A stretch of DNA of 49,719 bases. It comes from a virus. Shown one piece after another: positions 14,516 through 36,951 of the stretch. The translations under genes and the position numbers were made by a program. The stretch lies in the IMG/VR virus record IMGVR_UViG_3300037993_000263, positions 1 through 49,719 of that record. One strand, given 5' to 3'. Numbering within the stretch: position 1 is the stretch's first letter; each line of letters begins with the position of its first letter. The notes under the pieces are model-generated. The model saw only the letters and a list, made by a program, of their open reading frames with translations. It was not told the origin of the DNA and did not search any database.

Positions 14516-15784
14516 ATGGCTAATTACTACCAGACAACTGACAAAATCCTACGAAAGGCACTGGCGATTCTTCATGCCAAGTTGAATTTCATAGGATCTA
14601 TCCATCGCGACTATGATCCTCAGTTCGCCAGTTCTATAGGCGATGGGGGCAAAATCGGGGCTACGCTCCGAATCAGGCTCCCGGAGCAATACACTGTAAC
14701 CACCGGCGCTACCTTCGTGCCGCAGGGCATCGCGCAGAATGACGTGGTGCTGACCGTGGCCACCCAGAAACACGTGGGCCTGAAACTGACCAGCGCCGAC
14801 CTCGCCCTCAAGGACGAGGATTTCGAGGAACGTCACCTCCAACCTGCCATGAGCGTCCTGGCGACCGCCATGGAAGCCGATGCGCTCAGCATGATCGGTT
14901 CCATTTACAACATGAACGGTGCAGGCGGCGGCGGCGCACCCACCACGATGTATGCCTTCGGCCAGATGCGGGCCATGCTCAACAAGAACCTGGCCCCGGA
15001 CGCCGGCAAGCGGGTAGTCCTGATGGACTCCGACACCTCTGCGGCCATGGCTGACGGCCTCAAGGCCCTGTTCAATGACCGCCGGGAACTGGAACACGCC
15101 TACCTGGAAGGGTATCTGACCAGGGGGCAGGGGTTCACCTTCATGGAGAACGAACTGCTGCCCTACATCGCCAATGGGACTCGCTCTGCGAGCGCCAACG
15201 TCGGCTCTCCCAGCGCCAATGTGGCCCAGGGTGCCACCAGCATGACTGTCACTGGTTTTGCGGGCGGTGCCACCATCAACGCGGGCGAAGTGTTCACCTT
15301 CTATCCCTCCGGCGGAGCGGCTTCGGGTGTTCTCGCGGTGCATCCCGAAACCAAAACGGCCTACAATTACCTGCAACAGTTCGTGGTGACGCAGACTGTG
15401 ACCATCGGGGCTTCCGGGACGTTGAACTTCGCACCAGCGGTCAACTTCAACGCCGACGGATACCAGAATGTCAGCAGACAGCCGCTTACTACGGACTACG
15501 TGCAGTTCGCAACCGGCACCCCGCCTGCGGTTGGCGGCAGCGGCGCGGCCTCCGGGTCCTACCAGCAGCTTTTGGCCTTCCACAAAGACGCCTTCGCCTT
15601 CGTGACCGCCGATCTGCCGGTGTTTGACGGGCAGCCCTTCATGGCCCGCAAGACCATCGACAAACTCTCCATGCGTATCTGGAAGTTTGTGGACGGCGTG
15701 AACGATACGGAGAATACACGTATTGATGTGCTTTATGGATACCAAACACTACGGCCCCAGTTAGCCGTAAGATGGACAAAATAG
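14516..15784 (+). CDS. major capsid protein, P22 coat-like
   Basis: A 422-residue protein in the coat position, with an N-terminal opening like the P22 coat (LNFIGSIHRDYDPQFASSIGDGGKIGATLRIR begins near residue 24), a DVVLTVATQKHVGLKLTSAD strand region near 78-97, and an Ala/Gly/Ser/Thr-rich insertion around 220-270 typical of the accessory domain of this fold. It forms the icosahedral shell. AGGAG lies just upstream of the ATG. Confidence 0.85.
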   Translation: MANYYQTTDKILRKALAILHAKLNFIGSIHRDYDPQFASSIGDGGKIGATLRIRLPEQYTVTTGATFVPQGIAQNDVVLTVATQKHVGLKLTSADLALKDEDFEERHLQPAMSVLATAMEADALSMIGSIYNMNGAGGGGAPTTMYAFGQMRAMLNKNLAPDAGKRVVLMDSDTSAAMADGLKALFNDRRELEHAYLEGYLTRGQGFTFMENELLPYIANGTRSASANVGSPSANVAQGATSMTVTGFAGGATINAGEVFTFYPSGGAASGVLAVHPETKTAYNYLQQFVVTQTVTIGASGTLNFAPAVNFNADGYQNVSRQPLTTDYVQFATGTPPAVGGSGAASGSYQQLLAFHKDAFAFVTADLPVFDGQPFMARKTIDKLSMRIWKFVDGVNDTENTRIDVLYGYQTLRPQLAVRWTK

Positions 15785-15812
15785 TTGACTGACCATATAA
15801 GGAGATTCAATT

Positions 15813-16100
15813 ATGGCACAAATTGGTACGGGTACTGAACAATCAAGTTCATCCACTGCGATGATTGACTATCTTGGCGACGGTGGCCCGGATGGTCAGT
15901 GCATGGGTCGCAGCGCCACGGACAAAGACAGTTTCTTCGGAGCCACTCCGGTGGTGCAGCAGGTGATAGGCGCACCAACGAGTCTTACGACTAGCGGCCA
16001 ATCCACCACGCTGTTCACTGGTTCAACCCAGACCATCGCCTTTATGAATCAGATGGCGGCGGTTGTGACGGCTCTCAGAAACCTTGGACTTTGCTCTTAA
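15813..16100 (+). CDS. probable head decoration or minor capsid protein
   Basis: A 95-residue Ser/Thr/Gly-rich protein with a strong AAGGAG site. The motif DSFFGATPVVQQ resembles a short segment seen in small phage head proteins encoded beside the coat gene, followed by a helical C-terminus (FMNQMAAVVTALRNLGLC). Decoration is inferred from position and composition. Confidence 0.5.
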   Translation: MAQIGTGTEQSSSSTAMIDYLGDGGPDGQCMGRSATDKDSFFGATPVVQQVIGAPTSLTTSGQSTTLFTGSTQTIAFMNQMAAVVTALRNLGLCS

Positions 16101-16106
16101 CAACCC

Positions 16107-16134
16107 TAACGGGGAGGGGCAACTCTCCCCGTTA
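16107..16134 (+). terminator. strong hairpin after the coat genes
   Basis: TAACGGGGAG (16107-16116) and CTCCCCGTTA (16125-16134) form a perfect 10-bp stem with an eight-base loop. Only a weak T-rich stretch follows (TATTTT at 16141), so it may reduce rather than stop transcription, or protect the highly expressed coat mRNA. Confidence 0.65.
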
Positions 16135-16172
16135 CTTCCGTATTTTGCCTGACTTGGCAAAACGGCGATTAT

Positions 16173-18047
16173 ATGTCTGACATGTTGTCAAGGCTTGATT
16201 TAGTCATATGCAGTCCATTCCGAAATGTGGAGGCGTGGGCACCTCATACCGCTTCCCTGGCCGTATCCCTTCGCCTTTGCTGGGAGGCAGGAATAGCCGC
16301 CGAGTTCTGGCCGCTCATGGGCGACAGCTACGTATGGCATGCGCGCAATCATTTCGCTGATCTTTTTCTTAATTCTAAGGCGAAGCATCTTATCTTTATT
16401 GACTCCGACCATGGCTGGGATGTCATGGGATTTTCTAATCTCCTAAAGGCCCCCGGTGACGTGGTGGGAGCGGCTTACCCCTGTAACAATATGTGGGATA
16501 ATTGGGGGGTCCGGCATTTTACTAATGAAGATAAATTAAGAACCCCCAAGGTTGACCCTAAAACCGGACTCATCGAAGCGGATACTATACCTACCGGCTT
16601 TATGAAAATCAGCCGTAGGGCATTTGAACAAATCATAGCCCACGAGCCGGAAAATTATTATTGGGAAGGTGATTCCAAAGTTCATGGGTTCTTCAACCAT
16701 ATTCACGAAAACCATACAATGCAAGGGGAAGATATTTCTTTTTGTATCCGATGTGGCCGGGCCGGGGTCAAACTCTGGATCGAACCTAACATCACCATTT
16801 CCCATTATGGGATAGAACCGCATATCGGAAATTATTCCAAGTTTCTCTGCCAGCAGCGCGGGGGTTCTGAGTGGGTGAAGCCCCGTCCCAATGGCAAACC
16901 CTTTGTCAGCGTGGTTATCCCCTGCTTCAACTACGGGCATTTCATCGAAGAAGCTATTGAGAGTGTCTTGAAACAGTCGTATGGCAACGTGGAAATTATC
17001 GTGGTCAACGATGGCTCTACGGACAACACCTCAGAGGTGGCCCGGAAATATGGAGTGACACTGATCGAACAGGAAAACCAAGGGGTCTCGGCTGCCCGCA
17101 ATCGGGGGATCAGGGAATCACATGGCGAATGGGTCATGTGTCTGGATGCGGATGACATGCTGCACCCTGACTACATCGACCATTGCATGGAAGTGGATGC
17201 AGACATTGTAAGTGCAGGAACCCAAATGATCGGAGATAGCAACGGCACTTGGCTTTGTCCGGCCACTGTGCAGTATAAAGATTTCTTCAAAAGAAACTGC
17301 GTCAACTGTTCGGCATTGTTCAAAAAGAGGGTTTGGGAAGTTACTGGTGGTTTTGATGAAAAGATGCGGGGTGGATTTGAAGACTACGACCTGTGGTGGA
17401 GGGCCGCAAAGGAAGGTTTTAAGATAGCAGCGGTGCAGGAATATTTATTCTATTACCGCAAACATGGTCCTTCCATGATAGATGGGTCCAACGCCAAATC
17501 CCATGAATTATTGGCCTATATGTCAGCCAAGCATGGGGTGGGAAATGGTATCTTGCACCCGGACGGCAAGGCTGCGGTTATCAAAGAATATGCGGCTGGA
17601 AATGGTCATCGCACCTTCATCGAAACCGGAACCTGGCATGGGGACACAATAGACCGGGTAAAAGACTATTTTGATCGAATCTATTCTATAGAAATAGGAG
17701 ATGATTTATATAGTATGTGTAAGAAGAAGTACGAAGGCGACGCACATATTAATTTGTTTCACGGCAACAGCGCAGAAGTCTTGCCGGAACTATTAAAGAA
17801 CATTACATCGCCCTGTATCTTCTGGCTTGATGCTCACCATTCTGCGGGAGATACTTGTGGGGCTGAAGTGGACATACCCATTTGGGATGAGATTAAGGCC
17901 ATTAGGGAGCATCTGATAAAAGACCATATCATTCTGATAGACGATATGCGGGGGTTTTCATTGTCTGAATTAACTGAACACATTATGTCTTTTGGCGAAG
18001 CGAAGATTGAAAACAAAGACGATATTTTAAGGGTGACATTCCAGTGA
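16173..18047 (+). CDS. three-domain glycosyltransferase/glycosyltransferase/methyltransferase fusion
   Basis: A 624-residue fusion. Residues about 5-230 form a GT-A-like domain with a metal-binding motif in IFIDSDHGWDV (about 74-84). Residues about 242-445 are a clear GT2 enzyme: SVVIPCFNYGHF, VVNDGSTDNT, CLDADDM and GGFDE with a following ED. Residues about 465-624 resemble a class I methyltransferase-like domain (TFIETGTWHGDT, YSIEIG, FWLDAHHSAGDT, ILIDDMR). It likely adds and finishes sugars on a capsid or host-surface glycan. The stop overlaps the next GTG start (GTGA). It interrupts the head-gene order, which suggests acquisition. Confidence 0.8.
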   Translation: MSDMLSRLDLVICSPFRNVEAWAPHTASLAVSLRLCWEAGIAAEFWPLMGDSYVWHARNHFADLFLNSKAKHLIFIDSDHGWDVMGFSNLLKAPGDVVGAAYPCNNMWDNWGVRHFTNEDKLRTPKVDPKTGLIEADTIPTGFMKISRRAFEQIIAHEPENYYWEGDSKVHGFFNHIHENHTMQGEDISFCIRCGRAGVKLWIEPNITISHYGIEPHIGNYSKFLCQQRGGSEWVKPRPNGKPFVSVVIPCFNYGHFIEEAIESVLKQSYGNVEIIVVNDGSTDNTSEVARKYGVTLIEQENQGVSAARNRGIRESHGEWVMCLDADDMLHPDYIDHCMEVDADIVSAGTQMIGDSNGTWLCPATVQYKDFFKRNCVNCSALFKKRVWEVTGGFDEKMRGGFEDYDLWWRAAKEGFKIAAVQEYLFYYRKHGPSMIDGSNAKSHELLAYMSAKHGVGNGILHPDGKAAVIKEYAAGNGHRTFIETGTWHGDTIDRVKDYFDRIYSIEIGDDLYSMCKKKYEGDAHINLFHGNSAEVLPELLKNITSPCIFWLDAHHSAGDTCGAEVDIPIWDEIKAIREHLIKDHIILIDDMRGFSLSELTEHIMSFGEAKIENKDDILRVTFQ

Positions 18048-26012: not shown

Positions 26013-29000
26013 ATGCCCGATGATTTCTCCTTAGCGGAGTTAACAGCAGAACAGGGGCGGCGGCAGTCTCCCATGACGATCCCCGGCGAACCGGCTAAGG
26101 TTATTTCTGTGCGCCAAAATAATCCCTTTAATCTCAAGGGTAACTATTGGGGGGCTATTGGCGTGGGCAAGGACGATTTCGCCATATATCGCACGCCTGA
26201 AGCCGGAGTCCAAGCCGGGATTAGCCAAATTAAGTTGTATCAAGGCCGGAAGTTATCTTTTGGAGAATTTGCGGAGAAATATGCACCAAGGGATAAGAAC
26301 CCCACTTGGAAAGCTGACGTTGCCAAGATGTTAGGCGGTATTTCAGATGACACGCCTATTTCCCGGATACCCACTATGAGGCTTGTAAACGCCGTGGGGA
26401 AACGGGAATCTTCGGTTAATGTTGGGGGTGAGCATGATTACCCACTTGCTGAATTACAAGCGGAATTAGCGAGAAGGAGGGCTCCTGATTATACCCCTGG
26501 CGAATTGCAGGCAGAGTTGACAAGGCGCAGGGGCACCCAGGCCACCCCTCAACCCGCTCCCGGAGCAGTAATCCCCGAAGGCCCCCCCGGTGCCACAGCA
26601 GGCCCGCCAGGTACACAACCGGCAGTTACAGGAGCTACGCCCCCTGAACTACTCACGGCTCGGGCCAAGAGGTTTGCCGCACGGGCGCATCCGAATCTTC
26701 CAGGAGGCCCGCTGGGACCGCCAGGAGCGGGGGCAGAGGAAGGGGCGGCCCCAGCCCAACCCGGCGCACAACCTGCACCGGGCCTCACCCCCGCCCAATT
26801 AGCCCAAGCTGCCGAGATGCAGGAGGGGGCGGCTACCCCGATGCCGACTACAACCGCTGGCGAAGTTGGGAAGCAGTTAAAAGTTGGGTTCAAACAAAGC
26901 TTTACTGGTTTAATGGACACCCTCGACAGGGTGCCGTCTATTCCCAATTTTGATGCCGCCATGATTCCCCAGGCCAAGGAATTGAAGGGTGCCATAGATG
27001 ACTTTCAAAAGCTACGACCGTATATTCGCAAAATGCTTGAAGTAAACCCCGAAGATGTCGGCACAGATTTAGCCAGCAAGGTCTTACAAGGGTTAGGTTC
27101 CATGCCCGTAGGCGTGGCGAAATTTGGCGGGGCCATGGTCTTAGGTGGATTGCCCGGTGTAGCCGCCCTCGGTGCCGTCGAGACTCCCGGCGGGGTATGG
27201 GAAAAGACCAAGGGTGCAGGAGAGAACGTTGCTCTTGGTTGGCTCCTGGGGGCCACAGGAGGCTTGCCATTCGCTCAAAAGGTTGCGGCCATGGCTGGGA
27301 TAGGGGGGGGACAGGCGGCATTGGCAGGGGGCGGGGTTAAAGACATTACCGCCGGGGCTATCACCATGGCGGTCTTGGCTGGTACTCCCGGCGGAAAGGA
27401 ACTTAAAAAAGCAGTTGAGGCCGATGTCAAGCCCCCCGACATGAGCGGACACGATTGGGAACATGTCAAGGAAGCCGTCAAAAGGACTGAACCTCAGAAT
27501 GAGGAACAGGCGAAGGCGGTGACGGACATCCTAACCGATATTGAGAAAGGGAAACCCACGAACCAACCCGAAGTTCAACCCGCTAAAGGGGCGACTGCTA
27601 TCCCTGGCGAGGGCACCTCCTCCCCCGCCGCAGCCGCCCCGGAAGCGGGTGAACCGATGCCGGTAACTTCTTCTCCACCAGAGGATATCAAATCTATTCC
27701 AGAAGAACTCCGGGTTACTATCCCGGCCAATGCCGTGGATGTGGGAGATAACGACTATCAAGTCCCCCATGCAAAGTATCGGGGCAAGGGCATGTCGTTT
27801 CGTGGGGTCGCAATGTCAGCAGAAGATCATCGGATACCCAGCGAGGTTTATCATGTAACCACTAATGCTCCTGCTGTAGGGAAAATCGGTAAATTGCTTG
27901 CATCGGGCGAAGGTGGATTGGGAGGCGACAAGACAGACCGTATTGTTTCCTTTACCATTGATCGGGGCGTAGCCGATCAAATCTCTAAAGATTTAACACT
28001 CTCCGTTGAATTGGCCCGCAAGTATAAGAATCTGCCGGTAGGTGAATTAAAAGACGGTAAATTTGTTTATTCCCAGGAAAGGATTGATACAAGCGAGGCC
28101 ATTTATAAAGACCTCCAAGCCCAAGCCAAAAAGGAAGGGTGGACATTTGACTGGCCAAGAGTTGAAGGGCGTTACGATGTTGGAGATTGGTTAGGGGCCT
28201 ATTTTATTCGTAGAAATTCACAAACTGGTATACGAAATCCAATCATATTTACAGATTCCGCACGACTGGCCCAGATTAACCCAAAGGATATTCAGGTTCT
28301 TTCAGTCCCCAGGGAAAATTTGAAGACTACAGGTGCCTTAATAACCAATTTTGACCTTGACCAGCCGGGCGGTTTGCAAGAGATTCGGGTGTATGGTGAT
28401 GTTTCAACCCAGAAGACCCCTGCCCCTACCATTGCCAAGGAGCCTATCGCCTCACCACGGGCCTTAGGCGAAGCCGAGACAGGGGAAGTAGGGGGAGGCC
28501 CTGTTGCAAAACGTGGCTCTGAATTTGGTCTAAGGGGATTGGCAGCGAAGCAATATACCGTTGACGGTAATTTTATGGGAGACACCCCCAAAGAAGCCGT
28601 TGAAATTTATCTCAGAGAAACAGCAAGAAATAAGCAGACAGAGGCCGACGAAAAAGTTTTCCAGGACATGATTCCCAAATTGAGGGCGGGGAATTACACC
28701 GAAGCAGACCTAAAACAGATTACCGCTTATGGCAAAACCACAGTAACTACCGGAGAAGCAGAAGGAATTCTCAGGAGTCTCGGCCTAAAATCAACCGATG
28801 CGAGAAAAGCGGTCAAGGCATCCGGGGACATCGCTACCACTTCTGGCGGTGCAGTTCTTTATGACATTGGGCGGGCAATCGAAACCGCAAGGCGCAGAGG
28901 GCTTCTACCAGAAGTCACCCCAGTTGAGGGTGCGCCCATGACCAAAGAACGGCGTGAAAGGGAATTAGCGAAGGGCACCGCCCCCCTCCCGGAAGCCAAG

Positions 29001-32000
29001 GCTGGTGAAGCCGAGGGCGGGGGAGTAGGGGGTGTGCAGGGAACAATCCCCTCTTTTGATTTTACTAAACTTGAACACCCGATGCCTTATTATTTGCATA
29101 GTAATTTGCTTGATAGTTTTAAGTCTGCGAAAGACTTTGGTAACATAATGCGTCGAGGGCGGGAAACCAATTTAGTTGACCCAGAATTAAATAAATTAGC
29201 GGAATATGATTTTGAGAGGGAATTTGGAAGTCCTGAAAATTACTATAAATGGGTAAAAGATAATCAAGGCCATATCTCTGACATGCAGGATCAGTTTAAT
29301 CAATTTATTGACGTAATGCCGGTTGATGAACAAACGAAACTTAACTGGAAAAAAGACCCCGAAGAATTAGAGTTAAATATTCAGGCCCAAAGAGAAATGG
29401 CGAAACCCGACCTCGCCCCGAAGCCGGAAGCTGGGGGGGAGGGGGAAAAATCCCAGCAGATATTAAAATGGAATCATGGTGAGCCATGGATGGCTCCAGC
29501 AAAGCGGTCTCTAAGGCAGGCCAAGGCATTTCAGGAGAATCAAGCCGAAAAGCCCGAACCTGCCGCCCCCCAGCCCGCGGGGGAGGAGAAGGGGGAGAAA
29601 CTTTATGGCGGCGGTCCAGAAACCGGGCCATTCATAAAAAAAGCCCTGAATAACGCTGGGAAATCTTCCGTCCAAGCCGTCAGGGATATTGGCGAAGTAG
29701 TCACATCTATTCGGCATGAGTTGGGCATTACCGGCTCTGAACGCGGCAAGATGATTATTGAGGAAATGATGGGCAGACGGCGGGCCTCCACTCAGCAGGG
29801 CAAGGCGGCTCTGCTGGAATGGAAAGACCGTCTTGAGGCCATACCTCTGAATGACCAGTATCTTGAAGCAGCCAAATACCAGCAAGGACGGGAAACCCGA
29901 CCCGACCTCAAGAAGCTATTTGAAACCTGGAAATCCATATCAGACTGGCACATCCGCAAAATCAACGAGTTAGGTGCCCGCTCTCTTCGGTATGTGGATA
30001 ACTATATCCGGGGCGGGATGTTCACGAACCATGGAGACTCCAAGGTTACTGCGAACCAGGAGAAGTTTTTTGCAGGCAAACCTTTCGCCAACCATCTTGA
30101 CCGGGATGAGAGCGGTAACCCCCGTATGTATGTCCGCAAGCAGGACGCAGAGGGGCAGATAACCTATGTGCCGACCGGCAAGGTGGGCGAAGCGGTAGCC
30201 CCTGGCAAGGGTATGGGGGTATCCGGTTATGGCCGTGGTAAGACCCTCACGGGTGGCAGGGGGTATTTTAAGCAGAAGGTGTTCAGTAGTTGGATGGAAC
30301 CGCTCATGGTGGGGTATCAACCGAAGTATGGGCTATTCGATTTGCTGATGACCGACATCAAACAGAAGGGCCATTACATCTACGGCATGAAGGCATGGCA
30401 GCAGGCCCGCAAAGAAGGCTATATTAAATTCTTCGGGCCGGGGCAGCAACCGCCGGATTGGGTTCAAATCAATGACCCCATGGGGCGGGTGACATCGACC
30501 TATGCGGAGGAAAAAACTGGAACTCCCCGAGTGGCGATTAAACAAGCCTATGCCGAACCCACGTTTGCCAAGGTGTTCAATAACTTTCTGTCAGAAGGGT
30601 TGAGGGGCAAACCCTGGTATGACAAGGGCCGAGCAGTCATGGATGCGGCCCGTTTAGCTGGCGTTTCCTTTTCACCCTTTCATGCCAAGGTGACTTTCAA
30701 TAATGATGTGGCGACCGGGATTGGAGAACACGGGATCAGGGCAATGGGAGACCTACTCACCGGCGATGCAGAAGGGGCGGCGGGTCACGCCAAACAAGTC
30801 GCCAAGGCCGTCAGCGGAGTTAAGACCGTTAAGAACATGGGTGAAGCCCGCAAAGCAGCCATGGAGTTTTACAAGCCTGGCAGCAACACCATGTACCGGG
30901 AAGGGATAGATGATTATGTCATGTCTGGTGGAACTATGCCGGAGCCGGAAGTCACTCAGGGAATTGGCAAGGGGTTAGCAGATGGACTCAAGGGGGTAGC
31001 CAGAGATGTTGGTGATGCCCACCTTTTGAAGGCCACCTATAAAGCCGCCCAAACCACGTCCATCCCTATCATGCGCTACATGGTGCCCTATGCCAAGCTG
31101 ATGAGTTTCTTGGAGAAGCGGGCCTTGGCGTTGCCGGAATGGCAAAAACAGTGGCAGGGCAAACAGGACACCCCTAAAGCGGAAATGGATTGGCGGCGTC
31201 GGCTTCGTGAGGTCCGCCAGTTTGACGATTCCATGTACGGGCAGATAGCCCGTGATAACTTCCCTTTCTCTAACAGCGTGAAAGATGGCCTGTTTTTTCT
31301 GATTAAATATCCCGGTTGGAACTTAGGATCAGGAAAATGGATACTCGGTAATATCAAGGGTTCCTATCAGGGGTTGCGGAAACTGGTGACTGGCAAACCC
31401 ATGGGCGGCTTCGAGAAGATGTCCCTGAAATATACCGCGGGCCTGATAGCAAAGACAATGATCTTTAACACCCTGCTTTATATGGGGTTACATGGTGGCA
31501 AGACCCCGGATAACCACAAGGAGTTAATCACGAAAGGGGTGTGGACGGGTGGTTATAACCGGGATGGCAGCAAGCAGTATATCCGAGATGCTGATTACAT
31601 GAGGGATTTGGTTGGGTATTACACCGACCCCCTCGGGACGCTCCGGTCTAAATCCCCGGATATAATTAGACTCCCCTGGGAAATGCTCTCCAATGAAGAT
31701 TATTTCGGGAACAAACCCTATACTCCACGTGAACCCGCCAAGTGGCCATTGGAGTTTGGCAAGCAAGTGGTTAAGAGTTTTGCCCCCTATTCCATCCAGC
31801 AGGCGTTCCAAGGCAGGGATAAATTTGGTAAATACGGGCAGTTGGTGGGGATGACCTTAACTCCCCAGCGAGTTAGCAGGGACAAGTCAGAGGATATTAT
31901 TGCAAAGCATTATCAGAAACATGCCAGCAAGGGGCAAACCCCGGCAGAGACCAAAAAGTATCAAAAACTAATGCAACTTGAAGATATTGCCGAACATGGT

Positions 32001-33659
32001 GCTAATCCTGAGTTTAAGTCGAATCTCAAAAAAATGGAGAAAGCTGGTGAACTCACTGCCAGACAGGCGCAAAACGTAAAAGAAAAAGTTAAGAACGTCA
32101 AGGCTTACCGCTTCAAGGGCCTGCCTGTTGATGTGGCGGTGGAGGCATACCAGGCCGGGACCCCCGAGGAAAAGGCGATTTATGGTCCCTTACTGCGGCA
32201 CAAGATCAATAATCTGTCTGACCGGGACCGGGCCAAATATCGCCAGTACCGGGATTTCAAGAAGCAGATCGAAGAGGACGAAGCCGCCAGCCATGTGGGG
32301 GCGATTGATAAGGAACTGCTGAGGCGGCAATTCGGCGGCCCCATTCCGCCCAATCAGCCCGTCTTGGTGGGGGAGCAACAGCCCGAACTGCTCTTGCCCC
32401 AAGGCCAGGTAGTAGGCGCAGGAGGGCCACAGATCATACAGTCTCCACAGCCGGGGATGATCGTGCCACAGGTGCCGCTTGAGCAAGCCCAATTAACGAT
32501 CCCTGACCCGAATACCATGCTGGCGCATGTTTTAGATCAGTATCCCGGTCTTAAAAGAGTTCATAACATGGATACAACCTCAGCCATGTATGCTTCTCCT
32601 GAAAGGATTGCGGCTACCCAAAAAGCCTATGGGACCGAAGACATAGGTGGTCTGGAATATTGGCGAAAAACCGAAGGCGGGATGCCTGGATTGCCTCATC
32701 CCACAGGTGGCAAAGGTAATGTCTTAGAAATCTATAACCAGAAGATGAAAAATGATCCCCAAGAATTGCACACGGCTATTCTTGGAGATTTGATACATGG
32801 GATGCCAGATGATCCCGGCTGGGCAAAGATGAGGAATGAATTTGCCAGTAGCGGTAGTTGGTCACCCGAAGCCAAGGCGTTAATTAAAAGGCGTCAAAAT
32901 CTTCCAGAGGGAGACCCGCGACGTTGCCCGCCAGCAAGTGAAGGTGCAAAAAACAGCATGATTGATGCCTTTGTCCGGGGCGCTCTTATGCCCTACAAAG
33001 GCGGCAACTGGAAGGACAAGAACCCGGAGTTATATTCACCCAAGCAATTACAGGTACTGGATAAGATGGAGGAGTATCTTAAAACTGGCGAAATAAGAGA
33101 AGATAGAAATATCACTTGGCCCTTATCAAAGGAGGATCAAGATTATTATCGTAACCATTTTAATACTCCTTTGTCAAAAGCAGAAGAAGTCCAATTTCAG
33201 GATTGGATAGGCAAGGCTTCTAAGGTTATGGGAAGAAATATACAAGAGGATTTAGATAGTTATGATTTAAGGGGCCATTGGAAGGAAAACCTAAGAAATA
33301 AGCCCATTACAAAAGAGGTTATAATGGGTGGGCCAGACAAGTATAAAAAACCAAATTATCTCTATTTTGGCGATGAATCAATTTATCAGGGTGATAAGTT
33401 TCAAGGAGGTCATTGGGAAGAAGATGCTAAAACGGGTGCAGGAATATATACTCCTTCTAAACAGATGATGAAAGACCCCGAAAGAATGAAAGAAATAATT
33501 AAGTATTTCTCTAAGAGAGGAAGGGATTCGATATTAGTTATTCCATCATTGAAGTATGACAGTAGAGAACATTATAAAATAGAGCCCAAATCAGAGGACA
33601 AAGCAAATGGGCAGGTACAGGCCATCAATGCCGAATTGAAACGTAGAAACGGGGAATAG
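26013..33659 (+). CDS. giant polyvalent internal virion protein
   Basis: A 2548-residue protein, the largest gene. Visible blocks: residues 30-140, a domain with NNPFNLKG and IYRTPEAGVQAG, like virion-associated cell-wall-degrading proteins; 145-175, short ELARRRA/ELTRRRG repeats; Pro-rich linker to 270; two Gly/Ala-rich hydrophobic regions (365-395 and 405-460) that may enter membranes; about 608-790, a possible ADP-ribosyltransferase-like domain (EVYHVTT, VSFTIDRGVA, LQEIRVYGD); 1520-1960, a long conserved region resembling the C-terminal domains of large polyvalent proteins; 2165-2360, another conserved phage domain (EYWRKTEGG, DAFVRGALMP); and an A/T-rich end. It is probably injected with the DNA, first to breach the wall and then to act on host targets. 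Subdomain calls are tentative. Confidence 0.7.
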   Translation: MPDDFSLAELTAEQGRRQSPMTIPGEPAKVISVRQNNPFNLKGNYWGAIGVGKDDFAIYRTPEAGVQAGISQIKLYQGRKLSFGEFAEKYAPRDKNPTWKADVAKMLGGISDDTPISRIPTMRLVNAVGKRESSVNVGGEHDYPLAELQAELARRRAPDYTPGELQAELTRRRGTQATPQPAPGAVIPEGPPGATAGPPGTQPAVTGATPPELLTARAKRFAARAHPNLPGGPLGPPGAGAEEGAAPAQPGAQPAPGLTPAQLAQAAEMQEGAATPMPTTTAGEVGKQLKVGFKQSFTGLMDTLDRVPSIPNFDAAMIPQAKELKGAIDDFQKLRPYIRKMLEVNPEDVGTDLASKVLQGLGSMPVGVAKFGGAMVLGGLPGVAALGAVETPGGVWEKTKGAGENVALGWLLGATGGLPFAQKVAAMAGIGGGQAALAGGGVKDITAGAITMAVLAGTPGGKELKKAVEADVKPPDMSGHDWEHVKEAVKRTEPQNEEQAKAVTDILTDIEKGKPTNQPEVQPAKGATAIPGEGTSSPAAAAPEAGEPMPVTSSPPEDIKSIPEELRVTIPANAVDVGDNDYQVPHAKYRGKGMSFRGVAMSAEDHRIPSEVYHVTTNAPAVGKIGKLLASGEGGLGGDKTDRIVSFTIDRGVADQISKDLTLSVELARKYKNLPVGELKDGKFVYSQERIDTSEAIYKDLQAQAKKEGWTFDWPRVEGRYDVGDWLGAYFIRRNSQTGIRNPIIFTDSARLAQINPKDIQVLSVPRENLKTTGALITNFDLDQPGGLQEIRVYGDVSTQKTPAPTIAKEPIASPRALGEAETGEVGGGPVAKRGSEFGLRGLAAKQYTVDGNFMGDTPKEAVEIYLRETARNKQTEADEKVFQDMIPKLRAGNYTEADLKQITAYGKTTVTTGEAEGILRSLGLKSTDARKAVKASGDIATTSGGAVLYDIGRAIETARRRGLLPEVTPVEGAPMTKERRERELAKGTAPLPEAKAGEAEGGGVGGVQGTIPSFDFTKLEHPMPYYLHSNLLDSFKSAKDFGNIMRRGRETNLVDPELNKLAEYDFEREFGSPENYYKWVKDNQGHISDMQDQFNQFIDVMPVDEQTKLNWKKDPEELELNIQAQREMAKPDLAPKPEAGGEGEKSQQILKWNHGEPWMAPAKRSLRQAKAFQENQAEKPEPAAPQPAGEEKGEKLYGGGPETGPFIKKALNNAGKSSVQAVRDIGEVVTSIRHELGITGSERGKMIIEEMMGRRRASTQQGKAALLEWKDRLEAIPLNDQYLEAAKYQQGRETRPDLKKLFETWKSISDWHIRKINELGARSLRYVDNYIRGGMFTNHGDSKVTANQEKFFAGKPFANHLDRDESGNPRMYVRKQDAEGQITYVPTGKVGEAVAPGKGMGVSGYGRGKTLTGGRGYFKQKVFSSWMEPLMVGYQPKYGLFDLLMTDIKQKGHYIYGMKAWQQARKEGYIKFFGPGQQPPDWVQINDPMGRVTSTYAEEKTGTPRVAIKQAYAEPTFAKVFNNFLSEGLRGKPWYDKGRAVMDAARLAGVSFSPFHAKVTFNNDVATGIGEHGIRAMGDLLTGDAEGAAGHAKQVAKAVSGVKTVKNMGEARKAAMEFYKPGSNTMYREGIDDYVMSGGTMPEPEVTQGIGKGLADGLKGVARDVGDAHLLKATYKAAQTTSIPIMRYMVPYAKLMSFLEKRALALPEWQKQWQGKQDTPKAEMDWRRRLREVRQFDDSMYGQIARDNFPFSNSVKDGLFFLIKYPGWNLGSGKWILGNIKGSYQGLRKLVTGKPMGGFEKMSLKYTAGLIAKTMIFNTLLYMGLHGGKTPDNHKELITKGVWTGGYNRDGSKQYIRDADYMRDLVGYYTDPLGTLRSKSPDIIRLPWEMLSNEDYFGNKPYTPREPAKWPLEFGKQVVKSFAPYSIQQAFQGRDKFGKYGQLVGMTLTPQRVSRDKSEDIIAKHYQKHASKGQTPAETKKYQKLMQLEDIAEHGANPEFKSNLKKMEKAGELTARQAQNVKEKVKNVKAYRFKGLPVDVAVEAYQAGTPEEKAIYGPLLRHKINNLSDRDRAKYRQYRDFKKQIEEDEAASHVGAIDKELLRRQFGGPIPPNQPVLVGEQQPELLLPQGQVVGAGGPQIIQSPQPGMIVPQVPLEQAQLTIPDPNTMLAHVLDQYPGLKRVHNMDTTSAMYASPERIAATQKAYGTEDIGGLEYWRKTEGGMPGLPHPTGGKGNVLEIYNQKMKNDPQELHTAILGDLIHGMPDDPGWAKMRNEFASSGSWSPEAKALIKRRQNLPEGDPRRCPPASEGAKNSMIDAFVRGALMPYKGGNWKDKNPELYSPKQLQVLDKMEEYLKTGEIREDRNITWPLSKEDQDYYRNHFNTPLSKAEEVQFQDWIGKASKVMGRNIQEDLDSYDLRGHWKENLRNKPITKEVIMGGPDKYKKPNYLYFGDESIYQGDKFQGGHWEEDAKTGAGIYTPSKQMMKDPERMKEIIKYFSKRGRDSILVIPSLKYDSREHYKIEPKSEDKANGQVQAINAELKRRNGE

Positions 33660-34038: not shown

Positions 34039-35004
34039 ATGGACGACAAGATGCCCACCCGCTCCACCGAAGCCCTGCTGGCGAAGAAGGCCGAACTGGT
34101 CAGGAAAAATAAGGTAGGGAAGGCCATTACGCCGAGTCAGTATCCTTTCCCGGCCTTTGTCATGTGCCCCCCTGTCTATGTGGATAATGCTATCGCCAAC
34201 AATCCCTGGATGAAACCAGGAGAAAAAATTGACAAACCCAAATTTCTTGCCCAATGGTATTCATTCTTTAATAAATTGGCAGCCAATTCCTTCGTGCAAC
34301 TGGTGACTCCGGTCAAAGGATTGCAAGACCAAGTGTATATGAACAGCTTCATGTACCTGCCTCATCTCAAAAAGAACGATGTGATTATCTTAAGCAATTT
34401 TATGGCACCGGGGCGGGCGGGTGAGGAGGCGATAGTCGGCGCACTTTTAAAAGACATGGGTTATCAGGTTTTCAAGAACCCTTATAAATATGAGGGTGAG
34501 CCGGAAACTAAGTATCTCCATGATAATATCTACATCGGGGGGTACGGCCAGCGCAGTAGTATTGACGCCCATAAATGGATACGGGATAACTTCGAGGCTA
34601 AAATCATTCCAGTAAGGGTCAAAGACGAAAAATTATATCACTTAGATTGTATGTGCCTGCCGATGGGGCCAGAAAACACCGCACTTTGCACAAGCCTCTG
34701 TACCCCGGAAGAGATAGCCCGCGTCGAAAAGGTGACAAACGTCGTGTCAGTGTCCCTCCCGAGTGCGTATCATGGCATTTGTAATTCGCTCAAAGTAGAT
34801 GACGTACTCTACAATTCCAGTAACATTCGTTATTTAAAGAAGATAGATAAAGAATATGAAACAGAGCGTAAGAAAAATGCTGACCTGGAAAAAATAGCAC
34901 ATGGCCTGGGCTACGAGGTTATTTATGTGGATTTGAGCGAGTGCGAAAAATCAGGCGCATACCTGAGTTGCTTCGTGGCGCATTTGAATTGGCGGGATGA
35001 GTAA
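34039..35004 (+). CDS. DDAH/amidinotransferase-like guanidino-modifying enzyme
   Basis: A 321-residue member of the guanidino-modifying (arginine deiminase/DDAH/amidinotransferase) superfamily, whose enzymes use a Cys-His-acid centre to hydrolyse or transfer the amidine group of arginine-like compounds. Landmarks: VMCPPVYV with NNPWMKPG (41-61), GLQDQVYMNS (94-103), GEPE (153-156), GGYGQRSS (167-174), YHLDCMCLPMG with H201 and D203 (200-210), and the C-terminal SGAYLSCFVAHLN with the probable catalytic Cys311. The pattern is closest to DDAH-like proteins. Its stop overlaps the next ATG (TAATG). Hydrolase versus transferase cannot be decided here. Confidence 0.75.
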   Translation: MDDKMPTRSTEALLAKKAELVRKNKVGKAITPSQYPFPAFVMCPPVYVDNAIANNPWMKPGEKIDKPKFLAQWYSFFNKLAANSFVQLVTPVKGLQDQVYMNSFMYLPHLKKNDVIILSNFMAPGRAGEEAIVGALLKDMGYQVFKNPYKYEGEPETKYLHDNIYIGGYGQRSSIDAHKWIRDNFEAKIIPVRVKDEKLYHLDCMCLPMGPENTALCTSLCTPEEIARVEKVTNVVSVSLPSAYHGICNSLKVDDVLYNSSNIRYLKKIDKEYETERKKNADLEKIAHGLGYEVIYVDLSECEKSGAYLSCFVAHLNWRDE

Positions 35005-35876
35005 TGACTTATTACGATAAAGATTGCGACACCGTATACCTTACAGCAGCCCTTCACAGGCACCCCCACGTCTTTGAAGAGCTTCATCGGCATTTGCAGG
35101 ACCATGGCATTGATATCTATACTGTTTTCGATACGGACAACGTTTGGATTCGAGATTATTTTCCGATACAAGTTGGCTCCCGCTATGTGAAATTCCATTA
35201 CGGATACGGAGAGAAGGTGCGCCAGTACCCCCAGCTTGGGGTTCCGCCATTCTGTTACGCCCATTTGCAGCCGGAGATGTCGGGCCTGGGCCTGGACGGC
35301 GGGAACGTGGTCAGGTATGGGGACCGGGCTATCGTGACGGACATTATATATTTGCATAATAAATGGCTTACAAAGAAGAAGCTCCGGGCGGCGTTGGAAG
35401 ACGTGTTGGATGCGGAAGTGATTGTGATTCCACATGAGCCGTACGACTCCCTGGGCCATTCCGATGGGATTGTGAAGTGGATTGATGAGGGAACCGTGTT
35501 CGTGAACGACTATCAGAGCAAATATGGCGACAAGGTGATGAAAGCTCTGAGGAAACATAATCTTGAGTGCGTGCCGTTCCCCTACGAATACAAACAGTGT
35601 CCCAAGATGAGCGAGAAGGATTTTAGGGCTAAGTATCCCTACGCTGATGAATTTAATCCGGGCGTTGGGTATTATCTGAATTTTCTGATTGTCAGGGGAC
35701 TAATTCTGGCTCCGCAGTTTGACTTTGAACAAGACCCAGGGGTGCTAAATCTATTATTGCTGTATTTCCCCGACTGCGCGGTGGAGGGGATTGAGTGCTT
35801 GGATTTGAGTATGGAAGGCGGACTTTTGAACTGCTGCACTTACCAGATGAGGAGTGACCATGCTGCCCTTGCGTGA
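35004..35876 (+). CDS. agmatine deiminase / peptidylarginine-deiminase-like enzyme
   Basis: A 290-residue member of the PAD/agmatine deiminase branch of the same superfamily. Motifs in order: TDNVWIRDYFPI (44-55), the substrate-binding WxRD; LDGGNVV (97-103); LGHSDGIVKWID with probable catalytic His152 (150-161); and MEGGLLNCCTYQ with the expected catalytic Cys277 (270-281). Agmatine deiminases convert agmatine to N-carbamoylputrescine; PAD enzymes citrullinate peptides. It is shorter than cellular agmatine deiminases (about 340-370). It overlaps both neighbours, so the cassette is co-translated. Confidence 0.75.
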   Translation: MTYYDKDCDTVYLTAALHRHPHVFEELHRHLQDHGIDIYTVFDTDNVWIRDYFPIQVGSRYVKFHYGYGEKVRQYPQLGVPPFCYAHLQPEMSGLGLDGGNVVRYGDRAIVTDIIYLHNKWLTKKKLRAALEDVLDAEVIVIPHEPYDSLGHSDGIVKWIDEGTVFVNDYQSKYGDKVMKALRKHNLECVPFPYEYKQCPKMSEKDFRAKYPYADEFNPGVGYYLNFLIVRGLILAPQFDFEQDPGVLNLLLLYFPDCAVEGIECLDLSMEGGLLNCCTYQMRSDHAALA

Positions 35877-36579
35877 GTGGCTTGCCACGGAAGAAATTCA
35901 GAAGATCAAAGCAGAAGGTCCGGGACCACTTGTCACCAAGACCTTTTTCCGTGATCCCTTTCGGGATATCCATCGGGATACTACGGCCATGTATGCTCCG
36001 GCGGATGGAATAATTCTCTATGCCTTGGAGCGGATAAAACCCACTGATCCCATTGTGGAAATTAAGGGACGCAAGTTCGATGTCCGGGAAGCATTAGATG
36101 ACCCTGAATATGATACGCCGTCTTTGGTAATAGGTATCTTTATGACGCAGTACGATGTACACATAAATCGGATGCCCACGGACGGTTATTTGGTTAATGT
36201 CGGGTTTACGCCCTTTTTGTTCACGCCGAATGTAAGCATGGTCTTGGAAGAAAAAGACATCCTGGAAAATGCAGTTCCCCAAGTCAAAACCCTGGACTAC
36301 CTTTTTCAAAATGAGCGGCAGATCGTCAAGGTCTATAACCCAGACATGAAGGGCAGTTATTACCTCATCCAGATTGCCGAGCGCGAAGTCAACACCATCC
36401 TGAACTGGGGGATAGGGGATCACTTGAGCCAGGGTGAGAGATATGGGCTTGTCCGTTGGGGAAGCCAGGTTGACTTGATTATCCCGTTAAATGGTAAAAT
36501 AAAATATGAGATTTTAGCAAAGAAAAATCACCATGTAGAAGCTGGTATTGATGAGATCATAAGGATCATCAACCCCTAA
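35854..36579 (+). CDS. phosphatidylserine-decarboxylase-like pyruvoyl enzyme
   Basis: A 241-residue protein with phosphatidylserine decarboxylase landmarks: APADGII with Asp49 (46-52), VEIKGRKFDV (66-75), the TQYDVHINRMPTDG segment with His101 (96-109), and GLVRWGSQVDLIIP (196-209) containing the Gly-Ser at which the proenzyme self-cleaves to make a pyruvoyl cofactor (Ser202). Asp49, His101 and Ser202 correspond to the self-cleavage triad. It has no obvious membrane helix. Known relatives act on phosphatidylserine, and at least one (fungal PsiD) on a free amino acid, so a soluble substrate is possible. Confidence 0.75.
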   Translation: MTMLPLREWLATEEIQKIKAEGPGPLVTKTFFRDPFRDIHRDTTAMYAPADGIILYALERIKPTDPIVEIKGRKFDVREALDDPEYDTPSLVIGIFMTQYDVHINRMPTDGYLVNVGFTPFLFTPNVSMVLEEKDILENAVPQVKTLDYLFQNERQIVKVYNPDMKGSYYLIQIAEREVNTILNWGIGDHLSQGERYGLVRWGSQVDLIIPLNGKIKYEILAKKNHHVEAGIDEIIRIINP

Positions 36580-36597
36580 CTCCGGGAGGGAACATGA

Positions 36598-36951
36598 GTG
36601 GAGAATCAGACTGTACTCGGCTCCCACAAACAGAAGTTTGTGTTCTCATGTCGGGGGATTGTCCCCCGGGACCAGCTTGCCCAGGCGGCGAAAACCATCA
36701 TCGCCTTAATTGGCATGACTGCGGCCCGACCTGGACGCATAGACGACTATCCCTATCAGAACGGCGGCGGCGCAGGCTGCACCGGGTTCTTTCCGCTGAT
36801 GGAGAGCTATCTTATTATCGACAGTTATTCGGACCTGAACGAAACGGAAATACTAATCTCCACCTGTGTCCCCGAGCGGCTGAAGATGGACACGGTAACG
36901 GCGTTCCTGTCTAAGTTTATCGGCCCAACGGTTTACAGGGGGTCGCTTTAA
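36598..36951 (+). CDS. SpeD-like (S-adenosylmethionine decarboxylase fold) protein
   Basis: A 117-residue protein with the size and layout of class 1b SpeD: strand KQKFVFSCRG, helix RDQLAQAAKTIIALIGM, then GFFPLMESYLIIDSYSDL (63-80) and EILISTC (84-90). Ser70 in the Glu-Ser pair matches the self-cleavage/pyruvoyl serine, and Cys90 lies 20 residues later, as in SpeD. The usual histidine five residues after the serine is Asp75, and the HTxPE motif is absent, so the substrate has probably changed; SpeD relatives that decarboxylate ornithine or arginine are known, including in phages. The GTG at 36598 has GGGAGGG six bases upstream; an ATG four bases earlier opens a different frame. Confidence 0.65.
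   Translation: MENQTVLGSHKQKFVFSCRGIVPRDQLAQAAKTIIALIGMTAARPGRIDDYPYQNGGGAGCTGFFPLMESYLIIDSYSDLNETEILISTCVPERLKMDTVTAFLSKFIGPTVYRGSL

Follow-up and report, generated by a model that had tools for sequence, protein, structure and literature searches.

A Phage Gene Pair of an Arginine-Dihydrolase Relative and a PSD-Fold Pyruvoyl Enzyme, and Its Predicted Role in Putrescine Synthesis

Introduction

Virus-encoded polyamine synthesis is an established phenomenon. The chlorovirus PBCV-1 takes arginine toward putrescine with an agmatine deiminase, a PLP arginine decarboxylase, an amidohydrolase and a homospermidine synthase. A survey of viral polyamine genes reported SpeD-derived and PLP decarboxylases, no phage arginase, and agmatine deiminase only in chloroviruses (PMC9992855). 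Pyruvoyl ornithine and arginine decarboxylases derived from SpeD are also known (PMC10407285). Phage genes resembling phosphatidylserine decarboxylase (PSD), another pyruvoyl enzyme, have been interpreted differently: an ocean catalogue treats phage pssA and psd as membrane-lipid genes (PMC11360552). Arginine dihydrolases are represented in cyanobacteria by ArgZ and AgrE (Sll1336 and Alr4995), which also carry an ornithine-cyclodeaminase half.

Here, we describe a viral locus in which a relative of the arginine dihydrolases (A) is accompanied by a PSD-fold enzyme (C), together with the phage and bacterial loci related to it. As far as our searches show, this pairing is undescribed, while the kind of system that it would represent, virus-encoded polyamine synthesis, is already known. 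We found no paper linking the PSD and amidinotransferase genes of Campylobacter phages.

Layout of the Cassette

The DNA analyzed (the window, meaning the whole stretch) is an IMG/VR virus record of 49.7 kb. It contains genes for terminase, portal, scaffold, major head, head-closure and DNA-ejection proteins, which places the cassette in a late structural region. Four open reading frames lie between a 2548-aa ORF and a 759-aa ORF, in the positions and on the strand given by an earlier reading made from the sequence only:

34039..35004, + strand: A, arginine-dihydrolase-like, guanidino-group-modifying superfamily; 321 aa; NCBIfam NF052232; ArgZ/AgrE structures
35004..35876, + strand: B, agmatine-deiminase/PAD_porph family; 290 aa; PF04371; optional member
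35860..36579, + strand: C, PSD-fold pyruvoyl enzyme; 239 aa from ATG; PF02666; predicted pyruvoyl Ser202
36598..36951, + strand: D, faint SpeD-like central motif; 117 aa, GTG start; coding-like codon usage

The one-base overlap of A and B (TAATG) and the 18-base gap between C and D were as first described. The 23-base overlap reported for B and C applies only if C begins at a possible GTG at 35854; in alignments, the homologues start at the ATG at 35860, and the overlap is therefore probably 17 bases. Codon usage is coding-like in each of the four frames, with a score of 0.21 for D, compared to −0.15 for the competing ATG frame at 36594. A scan for promoters and terminators across the cassette gave signals no better than chance.

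Two other ORFs in the window may be mentioned. The 2548-aa ORF upstream of the cassette (26013–33659, 7.6 kb) had no PHROG match, and in a 624-aa ORF just 3′ of the major head gene (16173–18047) the first half matches a PHROG without known function and the second half matches glycosyltransferase families.

The A–C Pair in Phages

Since a single-sequence scan of viral contigs with A returned zero relatives, alignments of A and C were used to scan IMG/VR, yielding 33 and 25 loci, respectively. Among 30 non-redundant phage contigs with A, 29 had C close by, mostly no more than a few bases away; in the remaining contig (L064) C is present but cut at the contig end. Where A and C do not touch, the gene separating them is often B. 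In T4-like contigs the pair is flanked by the major head protein and PhoH. Among GenBank phages, mainly those of Campylobacter and Bacteroides, 47 records have A and 45 have C. The two genes are neighbors in Bacteroides phage DAC16 and in isolate phages of Bacteroides thetaiotaomicron, which carry their B homologue elsewhere in the genome, and are far apart in Campylobacter phage CPX. The adjacent pair in the B. thetaiotaomicron isolates makes its role testable in a laboratory host.

The conserved core of the cassette is thus A plus C, and not the single four-gene unit originally proposed. The suggested search for all four genes side by side in other phages recovered A and C, sometimes with B, and never D. 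The comparison with PBCV-1 must be narrowed as well. The resemblance lies in a viral route from arginine toward putrescine, predicted for the present locus, with an agmatine-deiminase relative, whereas none of the PLP arginine decarboxylase, amidohydrolase and homospermidine synthase of PBCV-1 belongs to the A–C core. No SpeD or SpeE was found in the phage records, many of which are possibly incomplete, and N-carbamoylputrescine amidohydrolase (CN_hydrolase) was absent from 20 records, including the window. The end point would then be putrescine itself, or a product made by host enzymes.

Gene A

A gave no Pfam match above cut-off. Its NCBIfam relatives are arginine dihydrolase (NF052232, E 4.2e-26) and dimethylargininase, and the related solved structures are ArgZ and AgrE, with about 220 residues aligned (E 2e-36). 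Seven residues (N55, D97, R126, E152, R172, H201 and C311) are invariant in 62/62 members, among them the catalytic Cys/His/Glu of guanidino-group-modifying enzymes (C311, the nucleophile, with H201 and E152). In the alignment, the conserved residues match the active site of ArgZ, whose residue numbers were deduced through a two-residue offset. N102, kept in 61 of the 62 members, aligns with Asn71 of ArgZ, which we take to be the determinant separating dihydrolases from deiminases. The substrate carboxylate in ADI and DDAH is held by two Arg residues (PMC11659421), and R126 and R172 are probably the counterparts of this pair.

The assignment of A as DDAH- or amidinotransferase-like was therefore right as to the guanidino superfamily, while the nearest relatives are arginine dihydrolases rather than amidinotransferases. 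A shares the superfamily, the catalytic triad and the dihydrolase Asn with ArgZ and AgrE, but lacks their ornithine-cyclodeaminase half and is paired with a decarboxylase. Because A reaches only 91.8 bits against the arginine-dihydrolase equivalog cut-off of 450, we refer to it as a relative and not a member. In PHROGs it is phrog_12759, with no function assigned.

Gene C

C scored 96.4 bits against PF02666 (PS_Dcarbxylase; cut-off 22), and its triad (D49, H101 and S202) is intact in 56/56 members. An AlphaFold model (pLDDT 88.6) matched the folds of E. coli PSD, the tryptophan decarboxylase PsiD and the arginine decarboxylase of Aspergillus oryzae (9jer), with modest TM-scores of 0.43–0.50. 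C has the fold and D-H-S triad in common with all three, the latter two of which decarboxylate amino acids.

Judged by its sequence, C is nevertheless a family separate from housekeeping PSD. It lies below every PSD equivalog cut-off, whether for phosphatidylserine or archaetidylserine decarboxylase (best 91 bits vs. 183), and its members form one group away from ordinary PSDs in the tree, with 99/100 support and a long branch. Nine of the ten genomes with C also hold an ordinary PSD, a further PF02666 gene that scores higher. No hydrophobic N-terminal segment of the type II PSD kind is seen in C; this carries little weight, since a clear anchor is missing from type I PSD as well. The family is phrog_12670 in PHROGs, where no function is assigned.

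The name phosphatidylserine decarboxylase is thus probably wrong for C, which is best read as a PSD-derived amino-acid decarboxylase, predicted to act on ornithine or arginine. In the sequence-only reading the PSD-like gene was the member that set the locus apart from the familiar pathway; it is instead the core partner of A. The predicted recruitment of a pyruvoyl enzyme as an amino-acid decarboxylase parallels that of the SpeD-derived enzymes of phages and bacteria (PMC9992855, PMC10407285), from which C differs in having the PSD fold.

Bacterial Copies

When 84,980 species genomes were scanned using the A alignment with a phage-derived pattern, 43 loci were retrieved. One of these (L069) duplicates the phage of L009 and was left out of the count. 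In 33 of the remaining 42 loci C directly precedes A in a tight C–A operon, found in Actinobacteria, Acidobacteria, Verrucomicrobia, Gemmatimonadetes, Xenorhabdus and Glomeribacter. The pair is frequently followed by a gene for a MATE or ABC exporter. In Verrucomicrobia there follow a PotD/PotF-like putrescine/polyamine-binding protein, which is confined to this group, and a sensor-kinase-like protein.

Neighbors could not be judged at three further loci (L097, L098 and L109), which were truncated, broken or not long enough. Of the six readable loci with A and without C, five, in cyanobacteria, have a PLP decarboxylase of the ornithine/arginine type adjoining A; the sixth (L107) has no such neighbor. 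Four of the adjoining genes (L101, L104, L105 and L106) are of the Orn_Arg_deC type (fold III), and that of L108 is OKR_DC (fold I), as identified by Pfam for L104 and L108 and by clustering for the others. All five replacements fall in a single clade of A. No PF02666 gene was found in three cyanobacterial genomes searched, and a sample of 244 cyanobacterial genomes contained only one copy of A, which was already known and did not enlarge the set. That two unrelated amino-acid decarboxylases take the place of C is the strongest reason to think that C itself decarboxylates an amino acid.

The bacterial C genes (loci L070–L110) form one clade nested within the phage C genes, and in the tree of A, rooted on ArgZ, the deepest branches are those of phages. 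Together, these trees suggest that the module passed from phages to bacteria, a reading to be taken with caution given the distant outgroups and the phage-derived pattern used to collect the bacterial loci.

In locus L082 (7264–14440) and related Verrucomicrobia, C, A, a MATE exporter, a PotD-like protein without adjacent ABC permeases and the sensor-kinase-like protein occur together. This cluster is possibly a putrescine secretion and sensing system.

Proposed Pathway and Alternatives

Our preferred reading, to which we assign a probability of about 0.5, is that A and C constitute a two-enzyme module leading from L-arginine to putrescine. A would hydrolyze the guanidino group of arginine twice, giving ornithine, CO2 and 2 NH3. 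C would generate its pyruvoyl cofactor by self-cleavage at Ser202 and decarboxylate the ornithine to putrescine. Where B is present, it could provide a side entry by converting agmatine to N-carbamoylputrescine, which would be finished by the host. The phage would gain extra diamine, which could serve in packaging its DNA, in translation or in taking over the host. What we observe are the genes and their catalytic residues, the phage and bacterial synteny, the separation of C from PSD, the PLP replacement and the exporter and PotD-like neighbors; the substrates, the order of steps and the benefit to the phage are inferred. The general proposal of a phage arginine/polyamine metabolism is largely supported by active sites, synteny, PLP replacement and polyamine-type bacterial neighbors, whereas its chemistry, its membership and its SpeD component had to be revised.

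More tentatively, a so far unrecognized phage family of PSD-fold ornithine decarboxylases and the arginine dihydrolase might represent a minimal putrescine pathway from arginine that bacteria acquired from phages and rewired, with exporters and a PotD-like sensor, for putrescine secretion or signaling. If so, the PSD fold would be a further protein fold for ornithine decarboxylation. On the preferred reading, a defined pathway would be made up of PHROGs 12759 and 12670, which are now without function or labeled amidinotransferase and phosphatidylserine decarboxylase, and a phage putrescine route would be added that is missing from the main viral polyamine survey (PMC9992855).

The step order would be different if C acted first, as an arginine decarboxylase producing agmatine, with A serving as an agmatine dihydrolase that yields putrescine, B converting agmatine to N-carbamoylputrescine, or both. 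A precedent exists in the PSD-fold arginine decarboxylase of A. oryzae, and B also speaks for this order. It matches PF04371 with 73.1 bits (cut-off 25), and its residues W48, R50, D51, H152, D154 and C277, with the catalytic ones among them, are invariant across 13 sequences, in keeping with the agmatine-deiminase-like identity first given to it. It joins the A–C pair in several phage contigs, and a homologue is found beside A and the PLP decarboxylase in cyanobacterial loci L101, L104 and L105. B is also difficult to fit into a route that passes through ornithine. However, B is an optional third gene, missing from most phages that have A–C, and A retains R126 and R172, the presumed carboxylate holders, whereas agmatine has no carboxylate. 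B also departs from agmatine deiminase (AguA/AIH) in being shorter, in reaching only 35.3 bits against an equivalog cut-off of 381.8, and in having no N-carbamoylputrescine amidohydrolase partner in the 20 phage records searched. We consider the C-first order unlikely; were it correct, the end product would be nearly unchanged (putrescine or a near relative).

B-family genes also occur with neither A nor C in the region read around them, one in a human-gut contig (L003:6972–8516) and one in another viral contig (L068:7989–8849).

A different guanidino or amine metabolite might also be made, with A as an amidinotransferase or hydrolase and C decarboxylating its product, for export by bacteria and another use by phages. 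The MATE and ABC exporters are compatible with this, as are the NRPS/PKS genes near L101, the condensation-domain protein near L106 and the amidinotransferase annotation carried by the Campylobacter phage copies of A. We regard it as quite improbable, since A retains the dihydrolase Asn and the PotD-like neighbors indicate ordinary polyamines.

It is very unlikely that C modifies host membranes as a true phosphatidylserine decarboxylase and that its linkage to A is a coincidence. The Pfam assignment and the lipid interpretation of phage pssA/psd would favor this, but C is tied to A in phages that are not related and in bacteria of many phyla, scores under all PSD equivalog cut-offs, coexists with an ordinary PSD and is replaced by PLP amino-acid decarboxylases. 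For the PSD-like family of C, the membrane-lipid reading (PMC11360552) is probably wrong.

The four-gene pathway, in which D would work alongside A, B and C as a SpeD-type pyruvoyl decarboxylase whose substrate is S-adenosylmethionine, arginine or ornithine, is scarcely credible: phage SpeD-derived ornithine and arginine decarboxylases exist (PMC9992855) and D follows C by 18 bases with coding-like codons and Ser and Cys at SpeD spacing, but it has no profile or fold match, carries Asp for the catalytic His and is missing from every other A–C or A–B–C locus examined.

The motifs first reported for all four genes were recovered in A, B and C by profile or alignment, and not in D. D had no match in Pfam or NCBIfam, including PF02675 (AdoMet_dc), for which none appeared at E 10. 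A SpeD profile built here from nine SpeD proteins of the genomes analyzed gave 6.6 bits (one-comparison E 4.5e-4); in this 6.6-bit alignment S70 and C90 are in register with the pyruvoyl Ser and catalytic Cys of SpeD, and Asp75 stands in place of the catalytic His, which is required for SpeD activity (H68 of T. maritima SpeD; PMC10407285). The HH-suite probability for SpeD was 1.5%, the structure model was poor (pLDDT 55) with no SpeD match in two fold libraries, and a single-sequence scan of viral contigs returned zero relatives. None of these searches made a convincing case for D as SpeD. D is a real coding sequence, perhaps for a SpeD-like protein that has decayed or diverged strongly, perhaps for an unrelated one; its place in the A–C module is unsupported, and it is left out of the pathway.

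DNA hypermodification and lombricine-type phosphagens were also considered, and set aside when no supporting evidence was found.

Inserted Elements at A–C Loci

Homing endonucleases commonly adjoin conserved phage genes. In several phages that are not related to one another, homing-endonuclease-like genes separate A from C or adjoin them (L020:1919–2668, L052:5185–5859, L005:3079–4524 and L001:9799–11337); those of L020 and L052, which separate A from C, were recognized by eye. One phage copy of A (L039:7667–10495) is split by two intein-like inserts within conserved motifs, and a phosphoesterase-like gene near it (14741–16756) also appears to bear an intein.
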